From Aspidapion aeneum (taxonomy: Eukaryota; Arthropoda; Insecta; Coleoptera; Brentidae), in contig OY755046.1 of the NCBI GenBank assembly GCA_963576565.1, positions 68,787,719 through 68,851,718 of the forward strand: DNA of 64,000 bases, given 5' to 3'. The translations under genes and the position numbers were made by a program. The notes under the pieces were generated by a model. That model searched no databases. It worked only from the letters and a program-made list of their open reading frames with translations, and was not told the DNA's origin. Below, one piece after another: positions 7,432-43,718 of this stretch (its first letter is position 1; every line of letters starts with the position of its first letter).

Positions 7432-7560
7432 CTGTAAAGAAAAAAAAAACAAGTTGTTTTAGCTATCCAATACCATACGCGAAAATGGTATTCCGTAAAA
7501 CCCAAGATTTTTTTAGATATTTTCCGCATATTTTAGAAATAAAAAATAATAAAAGCTTTA

Positions 7561-9590: not shown

Positions 9591-9593
9591 TAG

Positions 9594-10960
9594 AAAGTCT
9601 CTACACCAACGTGCCAATAAATGAGTCACTCAGTATCATTAAAAAAAAATTACAAACTGATGATACACTTCACGAGAGAACAACGCTATCGGTGGAGGGG
9701 GTGATGGATCTTTTGGAGCTCTGTCTCCGTAACTCTTACTTTCAAGTGAAAGATAAGTTTTACGCGCAAAATGATGGACTCCCTAATGGGTTCATCTCTT
9801 TCGCCAGTGGTAGCAAACATCTACATGGAGTGGTTCGAGGGCCATGCGATCAACACAGCAAGAGTCAAACCAAAACTATGGCTACGATACATGGATGACA
9901 CATTTATTATATGGCCGGAAAATGATGACGAACTACAAAATTTTCTACACCATTTAAACGGTATTCGACCAACAATCAAGTGCACCATGGAAATTGAAGA
10001 AGATTCGGCCTTACCTTTTTTGGATGTTCTTGTCAAACGATTAGACAGAAACACTCAAACCACTGTATATAGGAAACCTACACACACGGGACAGTACCTA
10101 AATTTTAAGTCTAATCATTCTGTTGCAACAAAACAAGGAGTTATAAGAAGTTTGTATTTGAGCCGTAAATATTTGTAGTAATAATGAAGAATTAACCACA
10201 GAAATTAACAACATTAAAAAGGACTTACAACAGAATGGTTATTCCGAGAAATTAATAAACTCAACGATATTTAAAATTAAAAATAAACTAAATGTACCAA
10301 ATTCTCAAAATAATAATCCGTTAGGTGTTATTAACATTCCATATGTTCAAGGGATTTCAGAAAACATAAGACGAATAGCTAAACACTATAATATAAAAAC
10401 AGTATTTTCTTCGGGAAATACGATAAGAAGTTTTGTAACTAAAACAAAACCAGACAATCCCTCAAATAATAAGGAATGTATTTACCAAATCCCGTGTGAG
10501 TGTGTAAATCATATGTAGGTGAAACGAAACGCCCTCTTCAGGTTAGAGTAAATGAACATCTAAAAAGTACCCAATTAGGGGATATTGAAAAATCCGGTTT
10601 AGCAGATCATGCTTGGTCAAATGATCACAGGATTCAGTGGTCAGAATCTAAAGTTTTACATAAGGAGTCGCATTGGCGAAAACGAAAGTTTATTGAAGCT
10701 GCGTATATAATGCAGAATAAAGAAGTTTTCAGTCAACCAAGCACGGACATACCAAACATATGGAAACCACTCCTTAAGGAAAACAGGCGTCTTAAGATTA
10801 AAAAAGGGGGCGGGCCGTCACACCTGACTGCACACCAAGTAGTATAAGTAGTAGCCTAGAGACTAGATTGTTTAGTTCACACTTGATAACGGTTAGAGAT
10901 ACTTACTAACCGAAACATCGTGTTTAAACAAAAAAAAAATAATAATAAATAAATAAACAC
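9594..10960 (+). mobile_element. Penelope-like element, RT plus GIY-YIG endonuclease, frame-broken
   Basis: Three frames read in order: VESLYTNVPINESL ... FYAQNDGLP (to ~9790); a one-base shift, then GSSLSPVVANIYMEWFE ... LWLRYMDDTFIIWPENDD ... ALPFLDVLV ... YRKPTHTGQYLNF (to ~10175); a shift, then CIYQIPCEC (10467-10499); a deletion, then KSYVGETKRPLQVRVNEH ... WRKRKFIEAAYI to a stop near 10845. YMDD is the RT catalytic box, and the YRKPTHTGQYL motif and SYVGETKR (GIY-YIG family) are hallmarks of Penelope-like elements. The three shifts show that it is inactive. The 3' end is an A-rich run near 10930-10960. It lies in intron 1 of the SSNA1-like gene, same strand. Confidence 0.88.
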
Positions 10961-12094: not shown

Positions 12095-13074
12095 TTCACA
12101 ACGTTCTACGTCTTCCGATACCCAAACTCCACTCGTTTCTGTTTGCCCATAATTCATCTAGGCCTCTTATTCTTATTTCACTGTCTATTCCTTCTCTCCA
12201 GCTTCTCCTTGGCCGTCCTCGTTTTCTTCGGCCAGTTGGTTTCCATTGTAGTATTTGTTTAGATAGTCTTTCATCATTCATTCTTTGTACATGTCCGTAC
12301 CACACCAGTTGTTTTGTTCTTATATCATCCACTAAAGTACGTTCACCCATTGTCATAATTTTTCTTATTCTTTGATTTGTAACTCTTTCTCTTTTTGATT
12401 TCCCTGCTGCTCTTCTCCAATAGTCCATCTCCGTAGCGGAAAGCATTTTTTCTGTTCTATCCTTGATTGGCCATACTTCTGAGCTGTATGTAATAATACT
12501 TTTTACAATGGTGTTATATATAAGCTTTTTGTTATGTTTTGATATACTTTGGTCCCAAATTATTCCATTTAATAAAGTTATTGCTTTTCTTCCTTGTACG
12601 TTTCGATCTTTTATAGCTTTGTCTAGTGTTCCGTGAGCTGTAATTTTTAAACCTAAGTATTTATACTCATCACAGGAATGAATTCGCTGCCCAGTATTTA
12701 AGATTACATCCTGTTTCGTTCCACCGATACACATATACTCTGTCTTATTGAGATTAACCTCTAGTCCCCACTTATTGTACTCTTCTATTAGTTTTCCTGT
12801 CATATATTCGAGGTCGTCATAATCCTGAGCCACTACTATTTGATTATCGGCGAAACATAAAGTATACAAGGTGGTTTCGTCCAACAGAATTCCCATGTTT
12901 TGGCATTTTCTCTTCCATACTTTAAGGACATGTTCCAAGTATATCTTGAAGAGCGTAGGCGAGATACAGCAACCTTGTTTAAGACCTTTATTTACTTGAA
13001 AGCCTTTGGTTAGTTTTGCTTTTATTTTAACTTTTGCCTTACTATTGCGGTATAACTCTTTAATGGCCTTAATT
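12036..13074 (-). mobile_element. 5'-truncated non-LTR retrotransposon with (TA)n tail
   Basis: One open frame on the minus strand from ~13072 to 12096: GLKQGCCISPTLFKIYLEHV, LYTLCFADNQIVVAQDYDDL, NLNKTEYMCIGG, ... ELW and a C-terminal GIGRRRTL before the stop. The order is RT domains 4-7 then thumb. The active-site box reads FADN instead of FADD, so the catalytic Asp is lost. A short 3' end leads into an AT repeat (12031-12090). The insertion is flanked by a 13-bp direct repeat AATATTAAATATA at 12023-12035 and 13075-13087. It lies in intron 2, opposite to the host gene; 5' truncation is usual for this retroelement class. Confidence 0.9.
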
Positions 13075-13134
13075 AATATTAAATATAAGAAAATTAAAAT
13101 ATATTTTTTTCGTGAGCAAATTAATTTTTTTTAG

Positions 13135-13826
13135 TCCTCCTATGGCCGGTACGACCACGTCGGATCCAAACGACGACTGCGACTGCCCAAAGAATGTGGC
13201 GTCATCTGCGCTAGCGACCTCTTCCAGCATACAAACCGCGAAAATAAAAAGATCCAACCAGATTTCTCAGGAACAACCTACTAGAGACCTCGGGTGGGAC
13301 TTAAGACATGAATTCTTAATAAGTCAACTGTCGGTACCCACTACTGTTACGTCAACTATCACCAGAGATGAGAGGCGGGGGCCTGAAAAAGAATACTTAA
13401 AAAGCGAACAATCAATGGCCAGTACTGTGACGCCATCTAACACTAAAGATGAAAGGCGGAAGTCTGAAAAAGAAAAGTTGATGAGCGAACAGTCAGTAGT
13501 CACTACTAGAGTGTCCTCTATCATTAAAAATGAAAGACGAGGCTCTGATAAAGACTACTTGAGGAGTGAACAGTCAGTCACTACTGGAGTGCCATCTATC
13601 ATTAAAAATGAAAGACGAGGGTCTGATAAAGACTACTTGAAAAGCGAATCGTCAGTACACACTGGGGCGCCATCAGCAACAAAAAATGATGAGAATGAGT
13701 TCTTAAGAAGTGAAGCATCGGTACCAACTGCAGCGATGTCGTCGATTGATGCTTATACCCGTACCAATGGTTCGAATATTTCGACGACAAAGAAAGGCCG
13801 AAAAAGGTCCAGTGAGGGATCAAAAG
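13135..13826 (+). CDS. SSNA1-like exon 3 (26-27-residue tandem repeats)
   Basis: 692 bases, entered in phase 2 and left in phase 1 (GTATGT donor). It reads SPPMAGTTTSDPNDDCDCPK, a Ser/Thr-rich stretch, then about five repeats of a 26-27-residue unit of the form KNERRGSDKDYLxSExSV, and ends STTKKGRKRSSEGSK. The repeats are hydrophilic and predicted disordered; the Ser, Arg and Lys spacing suggests phosphorylation sites but this is inference. Decayed duplicates of the exon follow in the next intron. The extra length relative to SSNA1 begins here. Confidence 0.75.
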
Positions 13827-13889
13827 GTATGTTTTTTTATAGCAAAAAAAAATAATTTTAATATCTACATTAATTAAAACTACCGGGTG

Positions 13890-14418
13890 AGACGCCAAAA
13901 CCGCGAAAGTTAAAAGAACCAGCCCGATTTCTTAGGAAAAACCCACTGGGGACCAAGGGTGGGCGTCGAGAACTGAATTCTTGAAGAGTGAAACGTCGGT
14001 ACCCAGTAATGTGGCGTCATCTATCATCTATCGGGTCTGAAACAGAATACTTGAAAGCGAACCATCAATGGCCACTACTGTAACGCCATCTAATACCAAA
14101 AATGAAAGACGGGGGTCTTAAAGACTACTTGAGAAACGAAACGTCAATAGCCACTACTGTGCTGCCATCTATTATCAAACATAAAAGACGGGGGCCTGAC
14201 AAAGACTATTTGAGGAGTGAACAGTCAGTAGTCACTACTGGAGTGTCATTTATCATTAAAAATGAAAGACGAGGATCTGATAAAGACTAACTGAAGAGCG
14301 AATCGTCAGTAAACACTACTCGGGCGCCATCAGTAACAAAAGATGATGAGAAAGAGTTCTTAAAAAGTGAAGCATCGGTACCAACTACAGCGATGTCGTC
14401 GATTGATGCTTACCGTAC
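13890..14418 (+). pseudogene. Decayed duplicate of exon 3
   Basis: Starting at ACCGCGAAAGTTAAAAGAAC the sequence follows exon 3 from about 13238 onward (GATTTCT-AGGAA, GAATTCTT, TCGGTACCCA, AATGAAAGACG, AAAGACTACTTGA, GATGTCGTCGATTGATGCTTA). It carries frameshifts and stops (for example TCTTAAAGACTAC and GACTAACTG), so it is not coding. It stops at GCTTACCGTAC, where the 103-bp satellite begins. Confidence 0.85.
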
Positions 14419-15248
14419 ACTACTATTGTGTAGTATCATCTGAAACGCAAGGATATATAAAAAATTTTGAAATCCGAGCAACTTTTTTTTTGTCGAAAAA
14501 ATTAGGATCACCATAGCTTACACTACTATTGTGTAGTATCATCTGAAACGCAAAGATATATAAAAATTTTTGAAATCAGAGCAACTTTTTTTTTATCGAA
14601 AAAATTAGGATCACCATAACTTACACTACTATTGTGTAGTATCATCTGAAACGCAAAGATATATAAAAATTTTTGAAATCGGAGCAACTTTTTTTTTATC
14701 GAAAAAATTAGGATCACAATAACTTACACTACTATTGTGTAGTATCATCTGAAACGCAAAGACATATAAAAAATTTTGAAATCGGAGCAAACTTTTTTTT
14801 TATCGAAAAAATTAAGATCACCATAGCTTACACTACTATTGTGTAGTATCATCTGAAACGCAAAGATATATAAAAATTTTTGAAATCGGAGCAACTTTTT
14901 TTTTTATCGAAAAAATTAAGATCACCATAGCTTACACTACTATTGTGTAGTATCATCTGAAACGCAAAGATATATAAAAAATTTTGAAATCGGAGCAACT
15001 TTTTTTTATCGAAAAAATTAGGATCACCATAGCTTACACTACTATTGTGTAGTATCATCTGAAACGCAAAGATATATAAAAATTTTTGAAATCGGAGCAA
15101 CTTTTTTTTTTATCGAAAAAATTAAGATCACCATAGCTTACACTACTATTGTGTAGTATCATCTGAAACGCAAAGATATATAAAAAATTTTGAAATCGGA
15201 GCAACTTTTTTTTTATCGAAAAAATTAGGATCACCATAGCTTACACTA

Positions 15249-18200
15249 CTATTGTGTAGTATCATCTGAAACGCAAAGATATATAAAAAATTTTGAAATC
15301 GGAGCAACTTTTTTTTTATCGAAAAAATTAGGATCACCATAGCTTACTCTACTATTGTGTAGTATCATCTGAAACGCAAAGATATATAAAAATTTTTGAA
15401 ATCGGAGCAACTTTTTTTTATCGAAAAAATTAGGATCACCATAGCTTACACTACTATTGTGTAGTATCATCTGAAACGCAAAGATATATAAAAATTTTTG
15501 AAATCGGAGCAACTTTCTTTATCGAAAAAATTAGGATCACCATAGCTTACACTACTATTGTGTAGTATCATCTGAAACGCAAAGATATATAAAAAATTTT
15601 GAAATCGGAGCAACTTTTTTTTTATCGAAAAAATTAGGATCGCCATAGCTTACACTACTATTGTGTAGTATCATCTGAAACGCAAAGATATATAAAAACT
15701 TTTGAAATCGGAGCAACTTTTTTTTTATCGAAAAAATTAGGATCACCATAGCTTACACTACTATTGTGTAGTATCATCTGAAACGCAAAGATATATAAAA
15801 ATTTTTGAAATCGGAGCAACTTTTTTTTTATCGAAAACATTAGGATTACCATAGCTTACACTACTATTGTGTAGTATCATCTGAAACGCAAAGATATATA
15901 AAAAATTTTGAAATCGGAGCAACTTTTTTTATCGAAAAAATTAGGATCACCATAGCTTACACTACTATTGTGTAGTATCATCTAAAACGCAAAGATATAT
16001 AAAAAATTTTGAAATCGGAGCAACCTTTTTTTTATGGAAAAAATTAGGATCACCATAGCTTACACTACTATTGTGTAGTATCATCTGAAACGCAAAGATA
16101 TATAAAATTTTTTGAAATCGGAGCAACTTTTTTTTTATCGAAAAAATTAGGATCACCATAGCTTACACTACTATTGTGTAGTATCATCTGAAACGCAAAG
16201 ATATATAAAAAATTTTGAAATCGGAGCAACTTTTTTTTTATCGAAAAAATTAGGATCACCATAGCTTACACTACTATTGTGTAGTATCATCTGAAACGCA
16301 AAGATATATAAAAAATTTTGAAATCGGAGCAACTTTTTTTTTTATCGAAAAAATTAAGATCACCATAGCTTACACTACTATTGTGTAGTATCATCTGAAA
16401 CGCAAAGATATATAAAAAATTTTGAAATCGGAGCAACTTTTTTTTATCGAAAAAATTAGGATCACCATAGCTTACACTACTATTGTGTAGTATCATCTGA
16501 AACGCAAAGATATATAAAAATTTTTGAAATCGGAGCAACTTTTTTTTTATCGAAAAAATTAGGATCACCATAGCTTACACTACTATTGTGTAGTATCATC
16601 TGAAACGCAAAGATATATAAAAATTTTGAAATCGGAGCAACTTTTTTTTTATCGAAAAAATTAGGATCACCATAGCTTACACTACTATTGTGTAGTATCA
16701 TCTGAAACGCAAAGATATATAAAAATTTTTGAAATCGGAGCAACTTTTTTTTATCGAAAAAATTAGGATCGCCATAGCTTACACTACTATTGTGTAGTAT
16801 CATCTGAAACGCAAAGATATATAAAAACTTTTGAAATCGGAGCAACTTTTTTTTTATCGAAAAAATTAAGATCACCATAGCTTACACTACTATTGTGTAG
16901 TATCATCTGAAACGCAAAGATATATAAAAAATTTTGAAATCGGAGCAACTTTTTTTTATCGAAAAAATTAAGATCACCATAGCTTACACTACTATTGTGT
17001 AGTATCATCTGAAACGCAAAGATATATAAAAAATGTTGAAATCGGAGCAACTTTTTTTTATCGAAAAAATTAGGATCACCATAGCTTACACTACTATTGT
17101 GTAGTATCATCTGAAACCCAAAGATATATAAAAACTTTTGAAATCGGAGCAACTTTTTTTTTATCGAAAAAATTAGGATCACCATAGCTTACACTACTAT
17201 TGTGTAGTATCATCTGAAACGCAAAGATATATAAAAAATTTTGAAATCGGAGCAACTTTTTTTATCGAAAAAATTAGGATTACCATAGCTTACACTACTA
17301 TTGTGTAGTATCATCTGAAACGCAAAGATATATAAAAAATTTGAAATCGGAGCAACTTTTTTTTATCGAAAAAATTAGGATCACCATAGCTTACACTACT
17401 ATTGTGTAGTATCATCTAAAACGCAAAGATATATAAAAATTTTTGAAATCGGAGCAACTTTTTTTTTATGGAAAAAATTAGGATCACCATAGCTTACACT
17501 ACTATTGTGTAGTATCATCTGAAACGCAAAGATATATAAAAAATTTTGAAATCGGAGCAACTTTTTTTTTATCGAAAAAATTAGGATCACCATAGCTTAC
17601 ACTACTATTGTGTAGTATCATCTGAAACGCAAAGATATATAAAAAATTTTGAAATTGGAGCAACTTTTTTTTTATCGAAAAAATTAGGATCACCATAGCT
17701 TACACTACTATTGTGTAGTATCATCTGAAACGCAAAGATATATAAAAAATTTTGAAATCGGAGCAACTTTTTTTTTTATCGAAAAAATTAAGATCACCAT
17801 AGCTTACACTACTATTGTGTAGTATCATCTGAAACGCAAAGATATATAAAAAATTTTGAAATCGGAGCAACTTTTTTTTATCGAAAAAATTAGGATCACC
17901 ATAGCTTACACTACTATTGTGTAGTATCATCTAAAACGCAAAGATATATAAAAATTTTTGAAATCGGAGCAACTTTTTTTTTATCGAAAAAATTAGGATC
18001 GCCATAGCTTACACTACTATTGTGTAGTATCATCTGAAACGCAAAGATATATAAAAACTTTTGAAATCGGAGCAACTTTTTTCTTATCGAAAAAATTTGG
18101 ATCACCATAGCTTACACTACTATTGTGTAGTATCATCTGAAACGCAAAGATATATAAAAAATTTTGAAATCGGAGCAACTTTTTTTTTATCGAATAAATT

Positions 18201-19250
18201 AGGATCGCCATAGCTTACACTACTATTGTGTAGTATCATCTGAAACGCAAAGATATATAAAAACTTTTGAAATCGGAGCAATTTCTTTTTTATCGAAAAA
18301 ATTAGGATCACCATAGCTTACACTACTATTGTGTAGTATCATCTGAAACGCAAAGATATATAAAAATTTTTGAAATCGGAGCAACTTTTTTTTTATCGAA
18401 AAAATTAGGATTACCATAGCTTACACTACTATTGTGTAGTATCATCTGAAACGCAAAGATATATAAAAAATTTTGAAATCGGAGCAACTTTTTTTTATCG
18501 AAAAAATTAGGATCACCATAGCTTACACTACTATTGTGTAGTATCATCTAAAACGCAAAGATATATAAAAATTTTTGAAATCGGAGCAACTTTTTTTTTA
18601 TCGAAAAAATTAGGATCGCCATAGCTTACACTACTATTGTGTAGTATCATCTGAAACGCAAAGATATATAAAAACTTTTGAAATCGGAGCAACTTTTTTC
18701 TTATCGAAAAAATTTGGATCACCATAGCTTACACTACTATTGTGTAGTATCATCTGAAACGCAAAGATATATAAAAAATTTTGAAATCGGAGCAACTTTT
18801 TTTTTAACGAATAAATTAGGATCGCCATAGCTTACACTACTATTGTGTAGTATCATCTGAAACGCAAAGATATATAAAAACTTTTGAAATCGGAGCAATT
18901 TCTTTTTTATCGAAAAAATTAGGATCACCATAGCTTACACTACTATTGTGTAGTATCATCTGAAACGCAAAGATATATAAAAATTTTTGAAATCGGAGCA
19001 ACTTTTTTTTTATCGAAAAAATTAGGATTACCATAGCTTACACTACTATTGTGTAGTATCATCTGAAACGCAAAGATATATAAAAAAATTTGAAATCGGA
19101 GCAACTTTTTTTTATCGAAAAAATTAGGATCACCATAGCTTACACTACTATTGTGTAGTATCATATAAAACGCAAAGATATATAAAAATTTTTGAAATCG
19201 GAGCAACTTTTTTTTATGGAAAAAATTAGGATCACCATAGCTTACACTAC
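15249..19250. repeat. Satellite block A (source or copy of 21.2-25.2 kb)
   Basis: About 39 monomers whose private variants recur in order at +5952/5953: the CTGAAACCC variant at 17111 and 23063, TCATATAAAACGC at 19161 and 25114, TTGAAATTGG at 17650 and 23602. The first part (15.25-16.28 kb) also recurs at +5030. A 617-bp (six-monomer) tandem duplication lies inside (about 17914-19147). Confidence 0.85.
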
Positions 19251-21200
19251 TATTGTGTAGTATCATCTGAAACGCAAAGATATATAAAAATTTTTGAAAT
19301 CGGAGCAACTTTTTTTTTATCGAAAAAATAAGGATCACCATAGCTTACACTACTATTGTGTAGTATCATCTGAAACGCAAAGATATATAAAAAATTTTGA
19401 AATCGGAGCAACTTTTTTTTTATCGAAAAAATTAGGATCACCATAACTTACACTACTATTGTGTAGTATCATCTGAAACGCAAAGATATATAAAAAATTT
19501 TGAAATCGGAGCAACTTTTTTTTTATCGAAAAAATTAAGATCACCATAGCTTACACTACTATTGTGTAGTATCATCTGAAACGCAAAGATATATAAAAAT
19601 TTTTGAAATCGGAGCAACTTTTTTTTTTTATCGAAAAAATTAAGATCACCATAGCTTACACTACTATTGTGTAGTATCATCTGAAACGCAAAGATATATA
19701 AAAAATTTTGAAATCGGAGCAACTTTTTTTTATCGAAAAAATTAGGATCACCATAGCTTACACTACTATTGTGTAGTATCATCTGAAACGCAAAGATATA
19801 TAAAAATTTTTGAAATCGGAGCAACTTCTTTTTATCGAAAAAATTAGGATCACCATAGTTTACACTACTATTGTGTAGTATCATCTGAAACGCAAAGATA
19901 TATAAAAAATTTTGAAATCGGAGCAACTTTTTTTTTATCGAAAAAATTAGGATCACCATAGCTTACACTACTATTGTGTAGTATCATCTGAAAAGCAAAG
20001 ATATATAAAAATTTTTGAAATCGGAGCAACTTTTTTTTATCGAAAAAATTAGGATCACCATAGCTTACACTACTATTGTGTAGTATCATCTGAAACGCAA
20101 AGATATATAAAAAATTTTGAAATCCGAGCAACTTTTTTTTTATCGAAAAAATTAGGATCACCATAGCTTACACTACTATTGTGTAGTATCATCTGAAACG
20201 CAAAGATATATAAAAAATTTTGAAATCGGAGCAACTTTTTTTTTATCGAAAAAATTAGGATCACCATAGCTTACACTACTATTGTGTAGTATCATCTGAA
20301 ACGCAAAGATATATAAAAAATTTTGAAATCGGAGCAACTTTTTTTTTATCGAAAAAATTAGGATCACCATAGCTTACTCTACTATTGTGTAGTATCATCT
20401 GAAACGCAAAGATATATAAAAATTTTTGAAATCGGAGCAACTTTTTTTTATCGAAAAAATTAGGATCACCATAGCTTACACTACTATTGTGTAGTATCAT
20501 CTGAAACGCAAAGATATATAAAAATTTTTGAAATCGGAGCAACTTTCTTTATCGAAAAAATTAGGATCACCATAGCTTACACTACTATTGTGTAGTATCA
20601 TCTGAAACGCAAAGATATATAAAAAATTTTGAAATCGGAGCAACTTTTTTTTTATCGAAAAAATTAGGATCGCCATAGCTTACACTACTATTGTGTAGTA
20701 TCATCTGAAACGCAAAGATATATAAAAACTTTTGAAATCGGAGCAACTTTTTTTTTATCGAAAAAATTAGGATCACCATAGCTTACACTACTATTGTGTA
20801 GTATCATCTGAAACGCAAAGATATATAAAAATTTTTGAAATCGGAGCAACTTTTTTTTTATCGAAAACATTAGGATTACCATAGCTTACACTACTATTGT
20901 GTAGAATCATCTGAAACGCAAAGATATATAAAAAATTTTGAAATCGGAGCAACTTTTTTTATCGAAAAAATTAGGATCACCATAGCTTACACTACTATTG
21001 TGTAGTATCATCTGAAACGCAAAGATATATAAAAAATTTTGAAATCGGAGCAACCTTTTTTTTATGGAAAAAATTAGGATCACCATAGCTTACACTACTA
21101 TTGTGTAGTATCATCTGAAACGCAAAGATATATAAAATTTTTTGAAATCGGAGCAACTTTTTTTTTATCGAAAAAATTAGGATCACCATAGCTTACACTA

Positions 21201-24200
21201 CTATTGTGTAGTATCATCTGAAACGCAAAGATATATAAAAAATTTTGAAATCGGAGCAACTTTTTTTTTATCGAAAAAATTAGGATCACCATAGCTTACT
21301 CTACTATTGTGTAGTATCATCTGAAACGCAAAGATATATAAAAATTTTTGAAATCGGAGCAACTTTTTTTTATCGAAAAAATTAGGATCACCATAGCTTA
21401 CACTACTATTGTGTAGTATCATCTGAAACGCAAAGATATATAAAAATTTTTGAAATCGGAGCAACTTTCTTTATCGAAAAAATTAGGATCACCATAGCTT
21501 ACACTACTATTGTGTAGTATCATCTGAAACGCAAAGATATATAAAAAATTTTGAAATCGGAGCAACTTTTTTTTTATCGAAAAAATTAGGATCGCCATAG
21601 CTTACACTACTATTGTGTAGTATCATCTGAAACGCAAAGATATATAAAAACTTTTGAAATCGGAGCAACTTTTTTTTTATCGAAAAAATTAGGATCACCA
21701 TAGCTTACACTACTATTGTGTAGTATCATCTGAAACGCAAAGATATATAAAAATTTTTGAAATCGGAGCAACTTTTTTTTTATCGAAAACATTAGGATTA
21801 CCATAGCTTACACTACTATTGTGTAGTATCATCTGAAACGCAAAGATATATAAAAAATTTTGAAATCGGAGCAACTTTTTTTATCGAAAAAATTAGGATC
21901 ACCATAGCTTACACTACTATTGTGTAGTATCATCTAAAACGCAAAGATATATAAAAATTTTTGAAATCGGAGCAACCTTTTTTTTATGGAAAAAATTAGG
22001 ATCACCATAGCTTACACTACTATTGTGTAGTATCATCTGAAACGCAAAGATATATAAAATTTTTTGAAATCGGAGCAACTTTTTTTTTATCGAAAAAATT
22101 AGGATCACCATAGCTTACACTACTATTGTGTAGTATCATCTGAAACGCAAAGATATATAAAAAATTTTGAAATCGGAGCAACTTTTTTTTTATCGAAAAA
22201 ATTAGGATCACCATAGCTTACACTACTATTGTGTAGTATCATCTGAAACGCAAAGATATATAAAAAATTTTGAAATCGGAGCAACTTTTTTTTTTATCGA
22301 AAAAATTAAGATCACCATAGCTTACACTACTATTGTGTAGTATCATCTGAAACGCAAAGATATATAAAAAATTTTGAAATCGGAGCAACTTTTTTTTATC
22401 GAAAAAATTAGGATCACCATAGCTTACACTACTATTGTGTAGTATCATCTGAAACGCAAAGATATATAAAAATTTTTGAAATCGGAGCAACTTTTTTTTT
22501 ATCGAAAAAATTAGGATCACCATAGCTTACACTACTATTGTGTAGTATCATCTGAAACGCAAAGATATATAAAAATTTTGAAATCGGAGCAACTTTTTTT
22601 TTATCGAAAAAATTAGGATCACCATAGCTTACACTACTATTGTGTAGTATCATCTGAAACGCAAAGATATATAAAAATTTTTGAAATCGGAGCAACTTTT
22701 TTTTATCGAAAAAATTAGGATCGCCATAGCTTACACTACTATTGTGTAGTATCATCTGAAACGCAAAGATATATAAAAACTTTTGAAATCGGAGCAACTT
22801 TTTTTTTATCGAAAAAATTAAGATCACCATAGCTTACACTACTATTGTGTAGTATCATCTGAAACGCAAAGATATATAAAAAATTTTGAAATCGGAGCAA
22901 CTTTTTTTTATCGAAAAAATTAAGATCACCATAGCTTACACTACTATTGTGTAGTATCATCTGAAACGCAAAGATATATAAAAAATGTTGAAATCGGAGC
23001 AACTTTTTTTTATCGAAAAAATTAGGATCACCATAGCTTACACTACTATTGTGTAGTATCATCTGAAACCCAAAGATATATAAAAACTTTTGAAATCGGA
23101 GCAACTTTTTTTTTATCGAAAAAATTAGGATCACCATAGCTTACACTACTATTGTGTAGTATCATCTGAAACGCAAAGATATATAAAAAATTTTGAAATC
23201 GGAGCAACTTTTTTTATCGAAAAAATTAGGATTACCATAGCTTACACTACTATTGTGTAGTATCATCTGAAACGCAAAGATATATAAAAAAATTTGAAAT
23301 CGGAGCAACTTTTTTTTATCGAAAAAATTAGGATCACCATAGCTTACACTACTATTGTGTAGTATCATCTAAAACGCAAAGATATATAAAAATTTTTGAA
23401 ATCGGAGCAACTTTTTTTTTATGGAAAAAATTAGGATCACCATAGCTTACACTACTATTGTGTAGTATCATCTGAAACGCAAAGATATATAAAAAATTTT
23501 GAAATCGGAGCAACTTTTTTTTTATCGAAAAAATTAGGATCACCATAGCTTACACTACTATTGTGTAGTATCATCTGAAACGCAAAGATATATAAAAAAT
23601 TTTGAAATTGGAGCAACTTTTTTTTTATCGAAAAAATTAGGATCACCATAGCTTACACTACTATTGTGTAGTATCATCTGAAACGCAAAGATATATAAAA
23701 AATTTTGAAATCGGAGCAACTTTTTTTTTTATCGAAAAAATTAAGATCACCATAGCTTACACTACTATTGTGTAGTATCATCTGAAACGCAAAGATATAT
23801 AAAAAATTTTGAAATCGGAGCAACTTTTTTTTATCGAAAAAATTAGGATCACCATAGCTTACACTACTATTGTGTAGTATCATCTAAAACGCAAAGATAT
23901 ATAAAAATTTTTGAAATCGGAGCAACTTTTTTTTTATCGAAAAAATTAGGATCGCCATAGCTTACACTACTATTGTGTAGTATCATCTGAAACGCAAAGA
24001 TATATAAAAACTTTTGAAATCGGAGCAACTTTTTTCTTATCGAAAAAATTTGGATCACCATAGCTTACACTACTATTGTGTAGTATCATCTGAAACGCAA
24101 AGATATATAAAAAATTTTGAAATCGGAGCAACTTTTTTTTTATCGAATAAATTAGGATCGCCATAGCTTACACTACTATTGTGTAGTATCATCTGAAACG

Positions 24201-25203
24201 CAAAGATATATAAAAACTTTTGAAATCGGAGCAATTTCTTTTTTATCGAAAAAATTAGGATCACCATAGCTTACACTACTATTGTGTAGTATCATCTGAA
24301 ACGCAAAGATATATAAAAATTTTTGAAATCGGAGCAACTTTTTTTTTATCGAAAAAATTAGGATTACCATAGCTTACACTACTATTGTGTAGTATCATCT
24401 GAAACGCAAAGATATATAAAAAATTTTGAAATCGGAGCAACTTTTTTTTATCGAAAAAATTAGGATCACCATAGCTTACACTACTATTGTGTAGTATCAT
24501 CTAAAACGCAAAGATATATAAAAATTTTTGAAATCGGAGCAACTTTTTTTTTATCGAAAAAATTAGGATCGCCATAGCTTACACTACTATTGTGTAGTAT
24601 CATCTGAAACGCAAAGATATATAAAAACTTTTGAAATCGGAGCAACTTTTTTCTTATCGAAAAAATTTGGATCACCATAGCTTACACTACTATTGTGTAG
24701 TATCATCTGAAACGCAAAGATATATAAAAAATTTTGAAATCGGAGCAACTTTTTTTTTAACGAATAAATTAGGATCGCCATAGCTTACACTACTATTGTG
24801 TAGTATCATCTGAAACGCAAAGATATATAAAAACTTTTGAAATCGGAGCAATTTCTTTTTTATCGAAAAAATTAGGATCACCATAGCTTACACTACTATT
24901 GTGTAGTATCATCTGAAACGCAAAGATATATAAAAATTTTTGAAATCGGAGCAACTTTTTTTTTATCGAAAAAATTAGGATTACCATAGCTTACACTACT
25001 ATTGTGTAGTATCATCTGAAACGCAAAGATATATAAAAAAATTTGAAATCGGAGCAACTTTTTTTTATCGAAAAAATTAGGATCACCATAGCTTACACTA
25101 CTATTGTGTAGTATCATATAAAACGCAAAGATATATAAAATTTTTTGAAATCGGAGCAACTTTTTTTTATGGAAAAAATTAGGATCACCATAGCTTACAC
25201 TAC
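21201..25203. repeat. Satellite block A'' (near-identical copy of 15.2-19.2 kb)
   Basis: Matches block A with a constant offset of 5952-5953 and only scattered single-base differences. Its first nine to ten monomers are preceded by a further copy 922 bp upstream (the AGCTTACTCTACT variant is at 15341, 20371 and 21293). The near-identity indicates recent block duplication by unequal exchange, or an assembly duplication. Confidence 0.85.
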
Positions 25204-28200
25204 TATTGTGTAGTATCATCTGAAACGCAAAGATATATAAAAAATTTTGAAATCGGAGCAACTTTTTTTTTATCGAAAAAATTAGGATCACCATAGCTTA
25301 CACTACTATAGTGTAGTATCATCTGAAACGCAAAGATATATAAAAAATTTTGAAATCGGAGCAATTTCTTTTTTATCGAAAAAATTAAGATCACCATAGC
25401 TTACACTACTATTGTGTAGTATCATCTGAAACGCAAAGATATATAAAAAATTTTGAAATCGGAGCAACTTTTTTTTATCGAAAAAATTAGGATCACCATA
25501 GCTTACACTACTATTGTGTAGTATCATCTGAAACGCAAAGATATATAAAAACTTTTGAAATCGGAGCAACTTTTTTTTTATCGAAAAAATTAGGATCACC
25601 ATAGCTTACACTAGTATTGTGTAGTATCATCTGAAACGCAAAGATATATAAAAATTTTGAAATCGGAGCAACTTTTTTTTTATCGAAAAAATTAGGATTA
25701 CCATAGCTTACACTACTATTGTGTAGTATCATCTGAAACGCAAAGATATATAAAAATTTTTGAAATCGGAGCAACTTTTTTTTTTCTCGAAAAAATTAGG
25801 ATTACCATAGCTTACACTACTATTGTGTAGTATCATCTGAAACGCAAAGATATATAAAAAATTTTGAAATCGGAGCAACTTTTTTTTATCGAAAAAATTA
25901 GGATCACCATAGCTTACACTACTATTGTGTAGTATCATCTGAAACGCAAAGATATATAAAAATTTTTGAAATCGGAGCAACTTTTTTTTATCGAAAAAAT
26001 TAGGATTACCATAGCTTACACTACTATTGTGTAGTATCATCTGAAACGCAAAGATATATAAAAATTTTTGAAATCGGAGCAACTTTTTTTTATCGAAAAA
26101 ATTAGGATCACCATAACTTACACTACTATTGTGTAGTATCATCTGAAACGCAAAGATATATAAAAAAAATTTAATCGGAGCAACTTTTTTTTTATCGAGA
26201 AAATTAGGATCACCATAGCTTACACTACTATTGTGTAGTATCATCTGAAACGCAAAGATATATAAAATGTTTTGAAATCGGAGCAACTTTTTTTTTATCG
26301 AAAAAATTAGGATCACCATAGCTTACACTACTATTGTGTAGTATCATCTGAAACGCAAAGATATATAAAAAATTTTGAAATCGGAGCAACTTTTTTTTTA
26401 TCGAAAAAATTAGGATCACCATAGCTTACACTACTATTGTGTAGTATCATCTGAAACGCAAAGATATATAAAAATTTTTGAAATCCGAGCAACTTTTTTT
26501 TTATCGAAAAAATTAGGATCACCATGGCTTACACTACTATTGTGTAGTATCATCTGAAACGCAGATATATAAAAATTTTTGAAATCGGAGCAACTTTTTT
26601 TTTATCGAAAAAATTAGGATCACCATAGCTTATACTACTATTGTGTAGTATCATCTGAAACGCAAAGATATATAAAAAATTTTAAAATCGGAGCTACTTT
26701 TTTTTTATCGAAAAAATTAGGATCACCATAGCTTACACTACTATTGTGTAGTATCATCTGAAACGCAAAGATATATAAAATGTTTTGAAATCGGAGCAAC
26801 TTTTTTTTTATCGAAAAAATTAGGATCACCATAGCTTACACTACTATTGTGTAGTATCATCTGAAACGCAAAGATATATAAAAAATTTTGAAATCGGAGC
26901 AACTTTTTTTTTATCGAAAAAATTAGGATCACCATAGCTTACACTACTATTGTGTAGTATCATCTGAAACGCAAAGATATATAAAAATTTTTGAAATCGG
27001 AGCAACATTTTTTTTATCGAAAAAATTAGGATTACCATAGCTTACACTACTATTGTGTAGTATCATCTGAAACGCAAAGATATATAAAAAAATTTGAAAT
27101 CGGAGCAACTTTTTTTTTATCGAAAAAATTAGGATCACCATAGCTTACACTACTATTGTGTAGTATCATCTGAAACGCAAAGATATATAAAAAATTTTGA
27201 AATCGGAGCAACTTTTTTTTTATCGAAAAAATTAGGATCACCATAGCTTACACTACTATTGTGTAGTATCATCTGAAACGCAAAGATATATAAAAATTTT
27301 TGAAATCGGAGCAACTTTTTTTTTATCGAAAAAATTAGGATCACCATAGCTTACACTACTATTGTGTAGTATCATCTGAAACGCAAAGATATATTAAAAA
27401 ATTTGAAATCGGAGCAACTTTTTTTTACCATAGCTTACACTACTATTGTGTAGTATCATCTGAAACGCAAAGATATATAAAAATTTTTGAAATCGGAGCA
27501 ACTTTTTTTTTATCGAAAAAAATTAGGATCACCATAGCTTACACTACTATTGTGTAGTATCATCTGAAACGCAAAGATATATAAAATTTTTTGAAATCGG
27601 AGCAACTTTTTTTTACCATAGCTTACACTACTATTGTGTAGTATCATCTGAAACGCAAAGATATATAAAAATTTTTGAAATCGGAGCAACTTTTTTTTTA
27701 TCGAAAAAATTAGGATCACCATAGCTTACACTACTATTGTGTAGTATCATCTGAAACGCAAAGATATATAAAAATTTTTGAAATCGGAGCAACTTTTTTT
27801 TATCGAAAAAATTAGGAACACCATAGCTTACACTACTATTGTGTAGTATCATCTGAAACGCAAAGATATATAAAAAATTTTGAAATCGGAGCAACTTTTT
27901 TTTTATCGAAAAAATTAGGATCACCATAGCTTACACTACTATTGTGTAGTATCATCTGAAACGCAAAGATATATAAAAATTTTTGAAATCGGAGCAACTT
28001 TTTTTTACCATAGCTTACACTACTATTGTGTAGTATCATCTGAAACGCAAAGATATATAAAAATTTTTGAAATCGGAGCAACTTTTTTTTTATCGAAAAA
28101 ATTAGGATCACTATAGCTTACACTACTATTGTGTAGTATCATCTGAAACGCAAAGATATATAAAAATTTTTGAAATCGGAGCAACTTTTTTTTATCGAAA

Positions 28201-29076
28201 AAATTAGGATCACCATAGCTTACACTACTATTGTGTAGTATCATCTAAAACGCAAAGATGTATAAAAAATTTTGAAATCGGAGCAACTTTTTTTTTATCG
28301 AAAAAATTAGGATCACCATAGCTTACACTACTATTGTGTAGTATCATCTAAAACGCAAAGATATATAAAAATTTTTGAAATCGGGGCAACTTTTTTTTTA
28401 TCGAAAAAATTAGGATCACCATAGCTTACACTACTATTGTGTAGTATCATCTGAAACGCAAAGATATATAAAAATTTTTGAAATCGGGGCAACTTTTTTT
28501 TATCGAAAAAATTAGGATCACCATAGCTTACACTACTATTGTGTAGTATCATCTAAAACGCAAAGATGTATAAAAAATTTTGAAATCGGAGCAACTTTTT
28601 TTTTATCGAAAAAATTAGGATCACCATAGCTTACACTACTATTGTGTAGTATCATCTGAAACGCAAAGATATATAAAAATTTTTGAAATCGGGGCAACTT
28701 TTTTTTTATCGAAAAAATTAGGATCACCATAGCTTACACTACTATTGTGTAGTATCATCTGAAACGCAAAGATATATAAAAATTTTTGAAATCGGAGCAA
28801 CTTTTTTTTTATCGAAAAAATTAGGATCACCATAGCTTACACTACTATTGTGTAGTATCATCTGAAACGCAAAGATATATAAACATTTTTGAAATCGGAG
28901 CAACTTTTTTTTTATCGAAAAAATTAGGATCACCATAGCTTACACTACTATTGTGTAGTATCATCTAAAACGCAAAGATATATAAAAATTTTTGAAATCG
29001 GAGCAACTTTTTTTTTATCGAAAAAATTAGGATCACCATAGCTTACACTACTATTGTGTAGTATCATCTGAAACGC

Positions 29077-29201
29077 AACCACTAGGGACCAGGAACCAGC
29101 GAATCGAGAAATGAATTTTTGAAGAGTTAAAATAAAAGAAGGGAGTTCGAAAAAGACTGCTTAAGGAGAGAACCGTCAGTAGTCACTACTGAGCCGCCAT
29201 A
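29077..29201 (+). pseudogene. Exon-3 duplicate fragment right of the satellite
   Basis: ACCACTAGGGACCAGGAACC, GAATTTTTGAAGAGT and CCGTCAGTAGTCACTACTG follow the same part of exon 3 as 13956-14010 and 14200-14240. This fragment meets the last satellite monomer at GAAACGCAA and is cut on the right by the Tigger-type element. Confidence 0.75.
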
Positions 29202-29203
29202 TA

Positions 29204-29810
29204 CAGTGAAACCTCTCCTTGCGGACACCTCTATTAAGCGGACACTCCCTTTAGGCGGACAAGTTATTTGGAACCACGCTTTTACCTATTTGTTTACATG
29301 TAGAATTCACTCCTATAACCGGACACTCTAATAACCGGACGCGGACAATTTTTGTTTGTTAAAAATTTTTTAAACCTCCCTTAACCGGACGCGAACCTCT
29401 GACAACGGGACGAAGCGCTGCACAACATGGGCACAAATATTATTTAGTATGTTGGCAACAACGCACTCTGCAGCCGGGGAATTACCTCTTTCCGTTTTAA
29501 TGTATTTACAACATATTTTATTCGGCGGGGGCGGGACTGCTGTGTTTTATTTTTATTGTTCAATTGGGTAGTAAAAGATCTCTTTGAAATAGTGCCTAGT
29601 ACAAAACTTCTTAGTTTACGTGAAAAAAATGTTGTTAACGTTTCAGAGAAGGAACATCTATCAGCACGAAAGATCGCTAAAAAATTTAATATCGGAAAAA
29701 CTCAAGCAACAGAAATTGTTAATAAATATATATTGAAATTTCGCAATTCCCTCTCATAAGCGGACAAAATCGACGGAACCGTGAGTGTCCGCTTATGGGA
29801 GGTTTCACTG
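29204..29810 (+). mobile_element. Tigger/pogo-type element with transposase N-terminal fragment
   Basis: A 607-bp element with ends CAGTGAAACCTC and GGGAGGTTTCACTG flanked by TA on both sides (29202-29203 and 29811-29812). AGCGGACA motifs repeat in both terminal regions. At 29556-29759 an open frame contains LLSLREKNVVNVSEKEHLSA, RKIAKKFNIGKTQATEIV, a CENP-B/psq-type helix-turn-helix as at the N-terminus of Tigger transposases; the catalytic DDE domain is absent. It is inserted inside the decayed exon-3 duplicate. Confidence 0.9.
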
Positions 29811-29812
29811 TA

Positions 29813-29970
29813 TTATCAAAAATAAAAGACGGGGGTCTAAAAAATACTACTTAAGGAGCGAACAGTCAGTAGCCACTACTGGGGCGCCATCTATCGCCAA
29901 AATGAAAGACAGGGAATCTCAAAGACTAATTATTGAGGAACTAACCGTTAGTACCAACTTATAGATAAAG
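29813..29970 (+). pseudogene. Exon-3 duplicate fragment between two insertions
   Basis: ATAAAAGACGGGGGTCT, CTTAAGGAGCGAACAGTCAG, TAGCCACTACTGGGGCGCCA and AATGAAAGACAGGG are copies of the exon 3 coding repeat with frame breaks. Together with 29077-29201 and 30956-31010 it is one duplicate split by later insertions. Confidence 0.75.
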
Positions 29971-32514: not shown

Positions 32515-33035
32515 AATACTCTGCCAATATATGGGCCCCTAAGCTCACACTAGGTACTATAGTTATAGTTTACGTGTGACCTAATATAACTAAAAACTGA
32601 AATATATTTTATTCAATTCCAGACTAAATTACCTTTTGATTGATACCACACAAGCCATGTTTTGACTTAAACTCAAATTTTTAAAATCTACCCCCACCCT
32701 TAAAAAAAACAAAAACTAAAATGTATTTTGTTAAACTACTGACTCAATTACCTTTCGTTTGATATCACACACGCCATATTTTCACTTAAACTCTAATTTT
32801 TGAAATATACCCCCACACTTAAAAAAAAAAAATTAAAATGTATTTTGTCTAACTCCAGACTCAAGTACCTTTCGTTTGATATCACACACCCTTTTATTTG
32901 GTTTGTGTTCGGTGGATTTTGTTCATTTTTAAATGGGACTATCTCGACCCAAGACCCAGCCTAGGTACCAAATTTCATTAAAATCGGCCAAGCGGTTTTT
33001 GAGTTATGCGCGTTGGTCGTTACAGACAGACATAC

Positions 33036-33076
<41 letters not shown>

Positions 33077-33077
33077 T

Positions 33078-33123
<46 letters not shown>

Positions 33124-33298
33124 GGCGCAATAAAAAAGTTTCAAAATCATCTGAAACGCAAAGATATATAAAAATTTTTGAAATCGGAGCAACTTTTTTT
33201 TTCTCGAAAAAATTAGGATCACCATAGCTCACACTACTATAGTATAGTATATGTGTGAGCTAACTCACACTACTATAGTATAGTATATGTGTGAGCTA
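32515..33298 (+). mobile_element. Hairpin-ended (ACAG)n element 1
   Basis: Left end ACTCTGCCAATATATGGGCC then a hairpin AGCTCACAC...GTGTGACCT; two to three copies of a ~119-bp internal unit (GACTCAATTACCTTTCGTTTGAT); a constant block with GGGACCATCTCGACCCAAGA and CGGTTTTTGAGTTATGCGCG; an (ACAG)n run at 33022-33123; then a segment equal to one satellite monomer (from ATCATCTGAAACGCAAAGAT to CACCATAGCTCACACTACT) and a terminal hairpin ending GTGTGAGCTA. The terminal hairpin is present twice in tandem (33227-33262, 33263-33298). No protein is encoded; frames through the ACAG run are artefacts. Confidence 0.85.
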
Positions 33299-33595
33299 AA
33301 ATCGGTGTGTTTGCGTTTTATCATGGGAAAGTGAAATCTTGCAGAGCGATTATCTCCCTCAAAAAAGATTTAGAATGAGAGGTGCTTGTTGAGTTACGGT
33401 TCGGTTCGGTGTAAGTGTAGTAGTTTTTTTTTGTATTCATACTAATACTTATGATTAAAATAATTTATTATTTTATTATGCAAAAAACCATTTTTTTGGA
33501 CTTTGTTTTTTGACATAATTTTATTATCTTTCAAAAAACAAAGATTGTCAACAAAAAATTGAGAACTAACTGACCTGTATAATAATATACAAGGA

Positions 33596-39053: not shown

Positions 39054-39467
39054 ACACTCTGCCAATCTATGAGCACCTAAGCTCACACTTGGTACTATAG
39101 TAATAATAAAATAACTAAAAACTCAATTACCTTTCGTTTGATACCACACAAGCCATGTTTTGACTTAACCTCTAATTTTTGAAATCTACCCCTACCCTTT
39201 TATTTGGCTTTTCAAATGGGACCATCACGGCCCAAGACCCAGCCTAGGTACCAAATTTCATTGGAATCGGACAAGCGGTTTTTGAGTTATGCGGGTTGGT
39301 CCTTACAGACAGACAGATATACAAACATACAGACAGACAGAGCGACAAAAAAGTTTCAAAATCATCTGAAACGCAAAAATATATAAAAATTTTTGAAATC
39401 GGAGCATCTTGTTTTTTCTCGAAAAAATTAGGATCACCATAGCTCACACTACTACTATACTATAGTA
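39054..39467 (+). mobile_element. Hairpin-ended (ACAG)n element 2, short
   Basis: ACTCTGCCAATCTATGAGC start, one internal unit, the GGGACCAT..GGCCCAAGACCCAGC block, a short ACAG tract (39307-39342), the satellite-like segment (CATCTGAAACGCAAAAATAT) and a damaged terminal hairpin (AGCTCACACTACTACTATAC). Confidence 0.8.
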
Positions 39468-39508
39468 AAAACTAAAATCATAATATTTTTGAAAATAATA
39501 CTCTTTTA

Positions 39509-40197
39509 AATACTCTGCCAATCTATGGGCACCTAAGCTCACACTGGGTACTATAGTTATAGTGTATCTACGTGAAAGCTAATATAACTAAAAACTGAAG
39601 TATGTTTTATTGAACTCCAGACTCAATTACCTTTCGTTTGATACCACACAAGCCATGTTTTGACTTAAACTCTAATTTTTCAAATCTACCCCCACCCTTT
39701 TTTTTTAAACTAAAATGTATTTTGTTTAACTCCAGACTCAATTACCTTTCGTTTGATATCACACACGCCATATTTCCACTTAAACACTAATTTTTGAAAT
39801 TTACCCCCCTTTTTTTTTAAAATAAACTAAAATGTATTTTGTTTAACTCCAGACTCAATTACCTTTCGTTTGATATCACACACGCCATATTTCCACTTAA
39901 ACACTAATTTTTGAAATTTACCCCCCCTTTTTTTTTTAAATAAACTAAAATGTATTTTGTTTAACTCCAGACTCAATTACCTTTCGTTTGATATCACACA
40001 CGCCATATTTTTTGATAAACTCTAATTTTTGAAATCTACCCCCACCCTTTTATTTGGCTTGTGTTCGGTGGATTTTGTTCATTTTTAAATGGGACCATCT
40101 CGACCCAAAACCCAGCCAGGGTACCAAATTTCATTAAAATCGGGCAAGCGGTTTTTGAGTTATGCGCGTTGGTCGTTACAGACAGACATACAGACAC

Positions 40198-40240
<43 letters not shown>

Positions 40241-40241
40241 T

Positions 40242-40275
<34 letters not shown>

Positions 40276-40414
40276 GGCGCAACAAAAAAGTTTCAAAATC
40301 ATCTGAAACGCAAAGATATATAAAAATTTTTGAAATCGGAGCAACTTTTTTTTTCTCGAAAAAATTAGGATCACCATAGCTCACACTACTATAGTATAGT
40401 ATATGTGTGAGCTA
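39509..40414 (+). mobile_element. Hairpin-ended (ACAG)n element 3
   Basis: Complete member: left hairpin (AGCTCACACTGGGTACTATA...), four internal ~117-bp units (GACTCAATTACC near 39620, 39735, 39852 and 39970), constant block, (ACAG)n at 40178-40275, satellite-like segment and terminal hairpin ending GTGTGAGCTA. Located in intron 6. Confidence 0.88.
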
Positions 40415-40609
40415 AAAGTAGTTTAAAACAAACCTAATTAATAAAAAAAACAAAAATATTTTTTACAGTTTTTTTTTAAATAATACTAAAAAGGAGTTTT
40501 TCAAAAACTAAATTGAAAAAAAAACTAAACAAACTTTTTTAGAAAAATTTATTCTTTTAAACTATTTTTTTAAAAATATGTTTAATACACGATATAAACA
40601 AAATTACAA

Positions 40610-40864: not shown

Positions 40865-41129
40865 GTAAGTGTAACCGTTTTTTTGAAAACAGTTTTGAAA
40901 AATCAGTTTTCACAACTTTTTTGTAAAACAGTTTTTTAGAAAGCAATTTATTCAAAAAACAATTTTTTGAAAAAGAAAAATTTTGATAAAAAAGTGTCAA
41001 TTTTTTTTAAAAGCAATTTTTTTGATCAGAAATTCCTTTGATTTTTCGGACAGGTTAGGATATGTTTGCGATCAATTTATGGTTAGGATAACACCGATTT
41101 GAAATTCTCAACAGAATTAAATAATTTTT

Positions 41130-41802
41130 TAGTTCACACTACTACTATAAATAGTGGGAGCTATAGTGATCCTAATTTTTTCGAGAAAAAAGTTGGTTCG
41201 ATTTAAATTTTTTTTAAATATCTTTGCGTTTCAGATGATTTTGAAACTGTATGTCTGTCTGTCTATAACGACCAACGCGCATAACTCAAAAACCGCTTGC
41301 CCGATTTGAATGAAATTTGGTATCTAGGCTGGATCTTGTGTCGAGATGGTCCCATTTAAAAATGAACAAAATCCACCGAACGCAAACCAAATAAAAGGGT
41401 GGGGGTAGATTTAAAAAATATGAGTTTATGTGAAAATATGGCGTGTGTGGTAATTGAGTCTGGAATTAAACAAAATACATTTTAGTTTATTTTAAAAAAA
41501 GGGTAGTGGTAGATTTCAAAAATTAGAGTTTAAGTGAAAATATGACGTGAGTTATATCAAACGAAAGGTAATTGAGTCAGGAGTTAAACAAAATACATTT
41601 TAGTTTTTTTTAAAAGGGTGGGGGTAAATTTCAAAAATTAGAGTTTAAGTCAAAACATGGCTTGTGTGGTATCACAACAAACGTAATTGAGTCTGGAATT
41701 GAATAAAATATATTTCAATCTTTAGTTATATTAGCTCACACGTACACTATAACTATAGTACCTAGTGTGAGCTTAGGTGCCCATATATTGGAAGAGTATT
41801 TT
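41130..41802 (-). mobile_element. Hairpin-ended (ACAG)n element 4, reversed
   Basis: Reads in reverse: AGTTCACACTACTACTATAA, ATAGTGATCCTAATTTTTTC, CTTTGCGTTTCAGATGATTT, a very short GTCT run (41250-41265), CAACGCGCATAACTCAAAAA, the internal units and finally CCCATATATTGG AAGAGTATTT. Opposite orientation to elements 1-3. Confidence 0.85.
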
Positions 41803-42001: not shown

Positions 42002-43057
<1,056 letters not shown>

Positions 43058-43081
43058 AAATGTTGAAATCGGATCAACATT

Positions 43082-43718
43082 TAGCTCACACCTATACTAT
43101 ACTATAGTAGTGTGAGCTATGGTGATCCTAATTTTTTCGAGAAAAAAAAAGTTGCTCCGATTTCAAAAATTTTTATATATCTTTGCGTTTCAGATGATTT
43201 TGAAACTTTTTTGTTGCGCCGTCTGTCTGTCTGTCTGTATGTCTGTCTGTCTGTCTGTCTGTGTGTCTGTATGTCTGTCTGTAACGACCAACGCGCATAA
43301 CTCAAAAACCGCTTGGCCGATTTTAATGAAATTTGGTACCTAGGCTGGGTCTTGGGTCGAGATGGTCCCATTTAAAAATGAACAAAATCCACCGAACACA
43401 AACCAAATAAAAGGGTGGGGGTATATTTTAAAAATTAGAGTTTAAGTGAAAATATTTCGTGTGTGATATCAAACGAAAGGTAATTGAGTCCGGACTTTAA
43501 CAAAATACATTTTAGTTTTTGTTTTTTTTGTAAGGGTGGGGGTAGATTTCAAAAATTTGTGTTTAAGTCAAAACATGGCTTGTGTGGTATCAAACAAAAG
43601 GTAATTTAGTCTGGAGTTGAATAAAATATATTTCAGTTTTTAGTTATATTAGCTCACACGTACACTATAACTATAGTACCTAGTGTGAGCTTAGGGGCCC
43701 ATATATTGGCAGAGTATT
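43082..43718 (-). mobile_element. Hairpin-ended (ACAG)n element 7, reversed
   Basis: Starts TAGCTCACACCTATACTATA, then the reversed satellite-like segment, (CTGT)n, constant block, internal units and ends CCATATATTGGCAGAGTATT. It forms a large inverted repeat with element 6 around a 24-bp centre. Confidence 0.9.

Follow-up and report, generated by a model that had tools for sequence, protein, structure and literature searches.

Does a long satellite array derive from the end of a transposable element that lies near it, and did the change take place where both are now found? This question is raised by the window analyzed here, a stretch of 64,000 nucleotides from the beetle Aspidapion aeneum (assembly GCA_963576565.1, contig OY755046.1, positions 68,787,719 to 68,851,718, forward strand), in which an array of ~103-bp units lies a few kilobases from dispersed, hairpin-ended elements. 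A preliminary description, made from the window alone, had proposed that a transposon end was turning into a satellite within one gene. We followed this up in the whole genome (1.286 Gb), whose contigs are called C1, C2 and so on and from which the loci L031 to L054 were fetched. The best explanation overall, which we consider likely, is that a segment of the 5' hairpin and core of a variant copy of the element, which looks like a HINE (a non-autonomous Helentron), became the satellite by tandem duplication, growth and re-insertion.

The satellite unit and the element end

The array is real, and each of its units matches one end of the dispersed elements. Between 144 anchors it holds 143 units (85 of 103 bp, 35 of 102 bp, 10 of 101 bp, 9 of 104 bp, one of 105 bp and three of 84 bp), which comprise 73 distinct sequences with a mean pairwise likeness of 0.956. 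Tandem Repeats Finder (TRF) gave a row of period 103 for 14416-27426 with 96% matches, and its rows of period 206 and 309 extend to 29078. All five element ends listed in the preliminary description were found, and a sixth, older copy on the other strand was added (copy 4 in Table 1). The window elements had been taken for intermediate steps towards the satellite, a view that does not agree with the homogeneity of their young ends (mean distance 0.020), which do not look like ancestors caught in the act.

On the canonical strand a full element reads T-run, a hairpin (AGCTCACAC...GTGTGAGCT), a core of ~85 bp, (GTCT)n and a body, followed by one to four central repeats of ~118 bp, a second hairpin in which the sub-terminal repeat returns, CCATATATTGG and CAGAGTATTTT. 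The sub-terminal inverted repeats of full young copies are AGCTCACAC, directly after the 5' T-run, and GTGTGAGCT, before the 3' end, where the repeat stops ~25 bp before the terminal T-run; the 3' palindrome, CCATATATTGG, is imperfect (CCATAGATTGG in two copies) and lies ~7 bp before that T-run. The comparisons with published systems here and below draw on parts of the cited papers. In mite elements the 3' sub-terminal repeat lies ~38-60 bp from the 3' terminus (PMC4067079), a spacing that agrees with the one here only if the entire 3' hairpin is included. Insertion into T-runs was seen in a few cases, namely copy 5 in the core of another HINE and the HINE at each of two C10 arrays in the T-run of a unit. 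The domain Helitron_like_N (PF14214) matched 32 stretches of the genome, some of them in open frames of 1,846 and 2,454 aa; loci with such frames include C70:25767-26318 and C8:37667014-37667397. In a search of control genomes 0 of 14 had a match.

In the HINEs of the oyster Crassostrea gigas a microsatellite lies in the left flank and a palindrome follows the right sub-terminal repeat (PMC7492417). With the parts described above the dispersed elements look like HINEs, and, because the same arrangement of these two features is found here, their canonical strand is taken to be opposite to the one assumed earlier. On this reading the satellite unit would be the 5' end of a HINE, from inside the hairpin to the end of the core, and the unit, which had been described as the last ~100 bp of the element, instead belongs to its 5' hairpin region. 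Nor is the hairpin of the array simply shortened, as had been stated: compared with the hairpin of copy 5, it shows three substitutions as far as AGTAT and lacks the outer arm alone. The doubled hairpin reported for copy 1 is indeed an exact tandem, but its unit is 36 bp long and it is no intermediate towards the 103-bp unit. In copy 5 the (ACAG)n run is 366 bp long and nearly pure, as compared to ~60-100 bp in the other copies of the window.

Array and element join in register

Within the array, one unit joins the next as ...AGT-AT-CATCTG, and the element has ...AGT-AT-ATGTGTG on one side of the corresponding segment and AA-AT-CATCTG on the other. On C1 (21,189,360-21,189,690) a HINE body, a short ACAG run, GACGGCGCAACAAAAAAGTTTCAAA and a complete core lead into the array junction without a break. 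On C9 (69,596,550) and C10 (15,479,284) the first unit of an array opens with the genuine HINE terminus TTTTAGCTCACAC, and the exact 27-mer that spans terminus and array-type hairpin has two genome matches, at these two places. Taken together, both boundaries of the array are in register with the single-copy element, the body side on C1 and the terminus side on C9 and C10, as expected if the 103-bp segment was duplicated in place. These joints bear out the earlier proposal that the satellite derives from a transposon end.

The exact array junction has 24,010 matches in the genome (8,231 + 15,779; control 0), and the exact 35-mer of the element end has 23,210 (11,543 + 11,667; reversed-pattern control 0). 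The outermost 5' bases of the element are absent from the repeated unit, with the two exact terminus fusions set against 24,010 junctions without them. That ~24,000 units have one founder-type junction in common suggests a single origin and genome-wide dispersal of the satellite. A second origin, through a junction with the common young hairpin, was considered and rejected, as this junction has 0 genome matches, which fits one founder type.

A different source of the first units would be an aberrant rolling circle, in which a circle of the HINE 5' end without the 3' terminator gives rise to a concatemer that is then inserted, a model put forward for plant Helitrons. We regard this as possible rather than probable; it overlaps the duplication of a 5' segment favored above and differs from it solely in the origin of the first units. 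The model is in print (PMC12628747, PMC8268682), and Helitron-type proteins (PF14214) occur in the genome. Plant Helitron arrays combine one 3' end with multiple 5' ends, repeated from several to several hundred times (Xiong et al. 2016, via PMC12628747 and PMC8268682), and the array at C10:1.41-1.436 Mb resembles them in its amplified 5' side and in the one HINE remainder on its 3' side (microsatellite, body, three central repeats and 3' end). However, the unit here omits the outermost 5' bases and is not a simple 5'-end repeat, so the complete 5' end that each unit of a plant-type array has is not found, and, unlike in plants, the unit joins an animal HINE in register. In addition, a 14-bp filler separates the C10 array from its HINE remainder, and this joint has a single occurrence in the genome; the 19 of 26 array edges in other DNA (described next) also speak against this model.

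Distribution and spread of the arrays

At 103 bp per junction the satellite amounts to ~2.47 Mb, or 0.19% of the genome, which is a lower bound since only exact matches were counted. Arrays are present on C1, C2, C4 and C6-C11, and one array has ~234 units. The junctions show a strand bias of about twofold, whereas the element ends are even; the bias could be explained by a few very large arrays. Among the first 100 places listed, the 30 exact junctions of C1 (227 Mb) all fall within 4.7 kb (21,189,678-21,194,339) and the next ones are on C2; therefore, exact junctions seem not to be scattered singly over C1. Fourteen of 19 placed arrays lie within the distal 10% of the contig concerned (binomial test against 20%, 7e-7), in a sample of best-scoring minus-strand hits, the window and the first junction places that includes some close neighbours and is neither random nor independent. 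The C1 array, which is outside this count, lies ~9% along its contig. Two arrays (L046 and L047, C10:67.1 and 68.3 Mb) are rich in a 91-93-bp version of the unit. A 30-mer searched in prokaryote and viral contig collections gave 0 matches in each.

To describe how arrays end, 26 edges were scored (21 from the fetched arrays, the two of the window array, and L052, L053 and L054), not counting gaps of <600 bp within stretches. Three run in register into a HINE (L049, L052, L053), four abut broken, inserted or inverted HINE (L031, L033, L034, L043), and 19 lie in other DNA, at many positions in the unit. Because these 19 edges are scattered over the unit, most sampled arrays, including that of the window, have the look of fragments that breakage and joining placed at new sites. 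The array stretches differ internally by 0.028-0.059, close to the mean distance between stretches (0.047), so that a stretch has next to no consensus peculiar to it. Three arrays, L054, L042 and the window array at 29078, break at almost the same unit position, CTGAAACGCA or one base beyond it, which could be chance among 26 edges.

Alternatively, whole arrays might travel as HINE cargo, by read-through from an upstream HINE, which we hold to be unlikely. Two C10 arrays (1.41 and 1.96 Mb) have an identical HINE-array joint and the same distinctive variants in the 3' half, but differ in central-repeat number and in the DNA beyond the 5' end of the HINE. Similarly, the terminus-bearing arrays of C9 and C10 have 102 bp of flank in common (97%) and then diverge. 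Shared joints and flanks of this kind would be explained both by HINE-cargo moves and by segmental duplications, and segmental duplication with later rearrangement fits the same data. Furthermore, the joint on the other side of the 1.41-Mb array (C10:1,435,934), which was tried as a scar shared by a mobile composite and rejected, has one genome match, so that no common far end was seen and such a composite gained no further support. The wider proposal that arrays of tens of kb are mobile parts of HINEs, which travel together with the terminus or through read-through that starts at an upstream HINE, while the units keep a partial terminal hairpin, and that rolling-circle transposition both spreads and lengthens the satellite near chromosome ends, is in our view quite unlikely.

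From element to satellite, or the reverse

The array and the element differ at one diagnostic site of the core. In the window and the 21 loci L031-L051, CTCGAA is found in eight of eight element-attached cores, whereas 1,418 of the other 1,494 cores have A at the C/A site (34 have T, 10 C and 2 G, and 30 are unscored); the truncated inverted HINE core in L043 is excluded from these numbers. The distinction between CTCGAA in dispersed copies and ATCGAA in the array, drawn in the preliminary description, is upheld with one exception, as a ninth element-attached core, the one on C1 fetched later, carries the satellite-type A. Since copy 4, which starts at 41127 and is diverged by 12%, has C at this site, C is likely the older state, as judged from this one copy. 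Over 83 core columns, with up to 40 units each, the consensus of 13 of 18 array stretches is that of the young HINE except at the C/A site, and the other five differ from it at one further site.

According to the preliminary description, a tree should show the array as one clade nested inside the element ends. In a tree of 93 units (sampled from the 1,494) and eight element ends, 61 of 81 inner branches stayed open; seven of the eight ends formed one clade (96/91) inside a satellite star and the old copy was placed elsewhere, an outcome that runs contrary to that expectation. We give the tree little weight, because ~85 columns are too few to resolve it and because the young ends, seven in number and 0.020 apart on average, look like a recent burst.

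The reverse direction would be that a HINE captured a pre-existing satellite unit, which became its 5' end. The clade of seven ends within the satellite star is in line with such a capture, as is the diversity of the satellite, which within stretches exceeds that of the seven ends. We nevertheless find it highly improbable: the unit includes part of the HINE's own 5' hairpin, the core of the diverged copy 4 already carries C, which is not the satellite state, and arrays run in register into the element on either side; the young ends may differ so little because they stem from a recent burst. It is the junctions, together with one older HINE copy, that indicate the direction of origin.

Several observations weigh against a step from element to satellite. 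Read literally, the tree goes against it and does not show satellites nested in elements. The AT repeated at the unit joint has a length of 2 bp only, so that coincidence could explain it. No single array with both HINE boundaries was seen among the arrays inspected; at their far edges, the array at C10:15.5 Mb and the C1 array, on its terminus side, run into other DNA, and the C9 array was followed to 69,610,999, short of its far end. Finally, exact genome matching found no solitary HINE with array-type hairpin and terminus, and the founder type is thus unseen as a dispersed family.

The window array, a probable secondary piece

The change had been placed within one gene of the window. A birth of the satellite there is not supported, given the 24,010 junctions genome-wide and the edges of the window array, which both lie mid-unit against non-element host DNA. 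Because both edges break mid-unit, the window array reads as a secondary piece, with repeated blocks of a gene-like region on either side. To its left is the second copy of a ~520-bp block (13898-14418, 80% like the first copy at 13233-13764), and to its right a weak match to 13943 onward (53 bp, 77%). The array looks to sit between the end of the second copy of the block and the apparent start of a third, and on that reading it would replace ~190 bp relative to the first block. The block itself (13233-14418) is coding-like and built of 78-81-bp repeats. The open reading frame (ORF) beside the array (13073-13855) has no Pfam match, so that a position of the array within one gene is plausible at most. 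Pfam gave no family for five of six ORFs, and an Rfam scan of the window gave 0 families at gathering score, hence no known RNA in the satellite unit.

That the array arose in place from a local HINE that was later lost is extremely improbable. Six HINE copies do lie ~3-14 kb away, but the window units stand as far from the young element ends (0.042) as from other array stretches (0.033-0.048) and have the genome-wide A state and junction, and the array breaks mid-unit against host DNA at both edges.

A proposed route

We propose that the founder was a variant HINE copy with a change of C to A in the core and three substitutions in the hairpin. A 103-bp segment that begins within the 5' hairpin and stops where the core ends would have been duplicated in tandem between two AT dinucleotides, probably by template switching at the hairpin or by aberrant rolling-circle replication of the 5' end. 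The array would then have expanded until it held tens or hundreds of units, and at least part of this growth would be due to duplication of large blocks, possibly through unequal exchange or slippage. A repeat of this kind is seen in the window array, where 39 units recur further on (Table 1), and this is a recent block duplication unless it reflects an assembly error. Judging from the edges, pieces of arrays may subsequently have entered many new sites, with breaks that mostly fell at scattered positions in the unit, and the window array would be one such secondary piece.

Relation to known systems

Parts of Helitrons and Helentrons were already known to become satellites, and the present case, a clear example, is distinguished by its unusually informative junctions. 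Published work describes Helentron-carried satellites, arrays flanked by element parts on one side, both or neither, and amplification of 5' ends by rolling circles (PMC7492417, PMC8268682, PMC12628747). In C. gigas satellites are carried by HINEs, and the arrays have element boxes on both sides, on one or on none (PMC7492417, PMC8268682). The likeness to these oyster elements, several of which have a GTCY-type microsatellite in their left flank, lies in that microsatellite and in satellite units on non-autonomous Helentrons. However, the repeated unit in the oyster is the central repeat, with ~29 units in the longest array of the set (PMC7492417), whereas here it is the 5' hairpin and core, with ~234 units in one array, and the element's own central repeats of ~118 bp stay at one to four copies. 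Sub-terminal inverted repeats, microsatellite, central repeats and 3' palindrome are shared with DINE-1/HINE elements and Helentrons, as T-rich insertion sites may be, judging from the few cases above; for these elements the portion of PMC4067079 used here describes no 5'-end satellite. In Drosophila virilis, repeats internal to the transposon Tetris have likewise given rise to satellite arrays (TIR-220), although Tetris is a foldback-like element with terminal inverted repeats and not a HINE (PMC4079207).

A search of titles and abstract openings in the open literature found no animal satellite made of a HINE 5' hairpin and core, which, with most subscription papers outside its scope, is weak evidence of novelty. 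Conversion of a transposon into a satellite has often been argued from sequence likeness; here the joints themselves are visible, on C1, C9 and C10.

Features of the window

Table 1. Coordinates of the satellite array, the HINE copies and associated features in the window
Feature	Position	Strand	Remarks
103-bp satellite array	14416..29078	+	TRF; 143 units between anchors; edges inside unit, at unit positions 0 and 35
Approximate block of 39 units	15255..19255	+	36/39 identical to the unit 58 places (~5.95 kb) on; ends approximate
Stretch with all three 84-bp short units	27367..28031	+	anchors 27367, 27555, 27947
Host repeat block, copy 1	13233..13764	+	~80% like 13898-14418
HINE copy 1	32518..33302	- (canonical strand)	36-bp 5' hairpin tandemly doubled at 33228-33299
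HINE copy 2	39056..39468	-	5' hairpin truncated
HINE copy 3	39512..40417	-	
HINE copy 4	41127..41800 (about)	+	older, ~12% from other ends; carries CTCGAA; absent from the preliminary description
HINE copy 5	42005..43060	-	inserted in T-run of the core of another, truncated HINE; (ACAG)n at 42553-42918
HINE copy 6	43080..43714	+	head to head with copy 5

Two further large tandem arrays are present in the window, one at 47837-52901 with a 142-bp unit in ~36 copies, to which a period of 426 bp also fits, and one at 53744-57078 with a 284-bp unit in ~12 copies. Repeats of 169 bp occur at 7552-8254 and 45218-45801, and by eye a similar sequence lies beside the HINE at the left end of L031. A repeat with inverted-looking ends (CAGTGAAACCTC...GAGGTTTCACTG) was found at 29205-29813, part of which is 91% like 8645-8942 and 89% like the edge of a C8 array (L041).

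Two retroelement pieces lie to the left of the satellite array. The piece at 9581-10847, with no Pfam hit, is presumably Penelope-like from its look. The other, at 12096-13130, has a reverse transcriptase domain, and its closest named relatives are mostly beetle proteins, the first being from Coccinella septempunctata.

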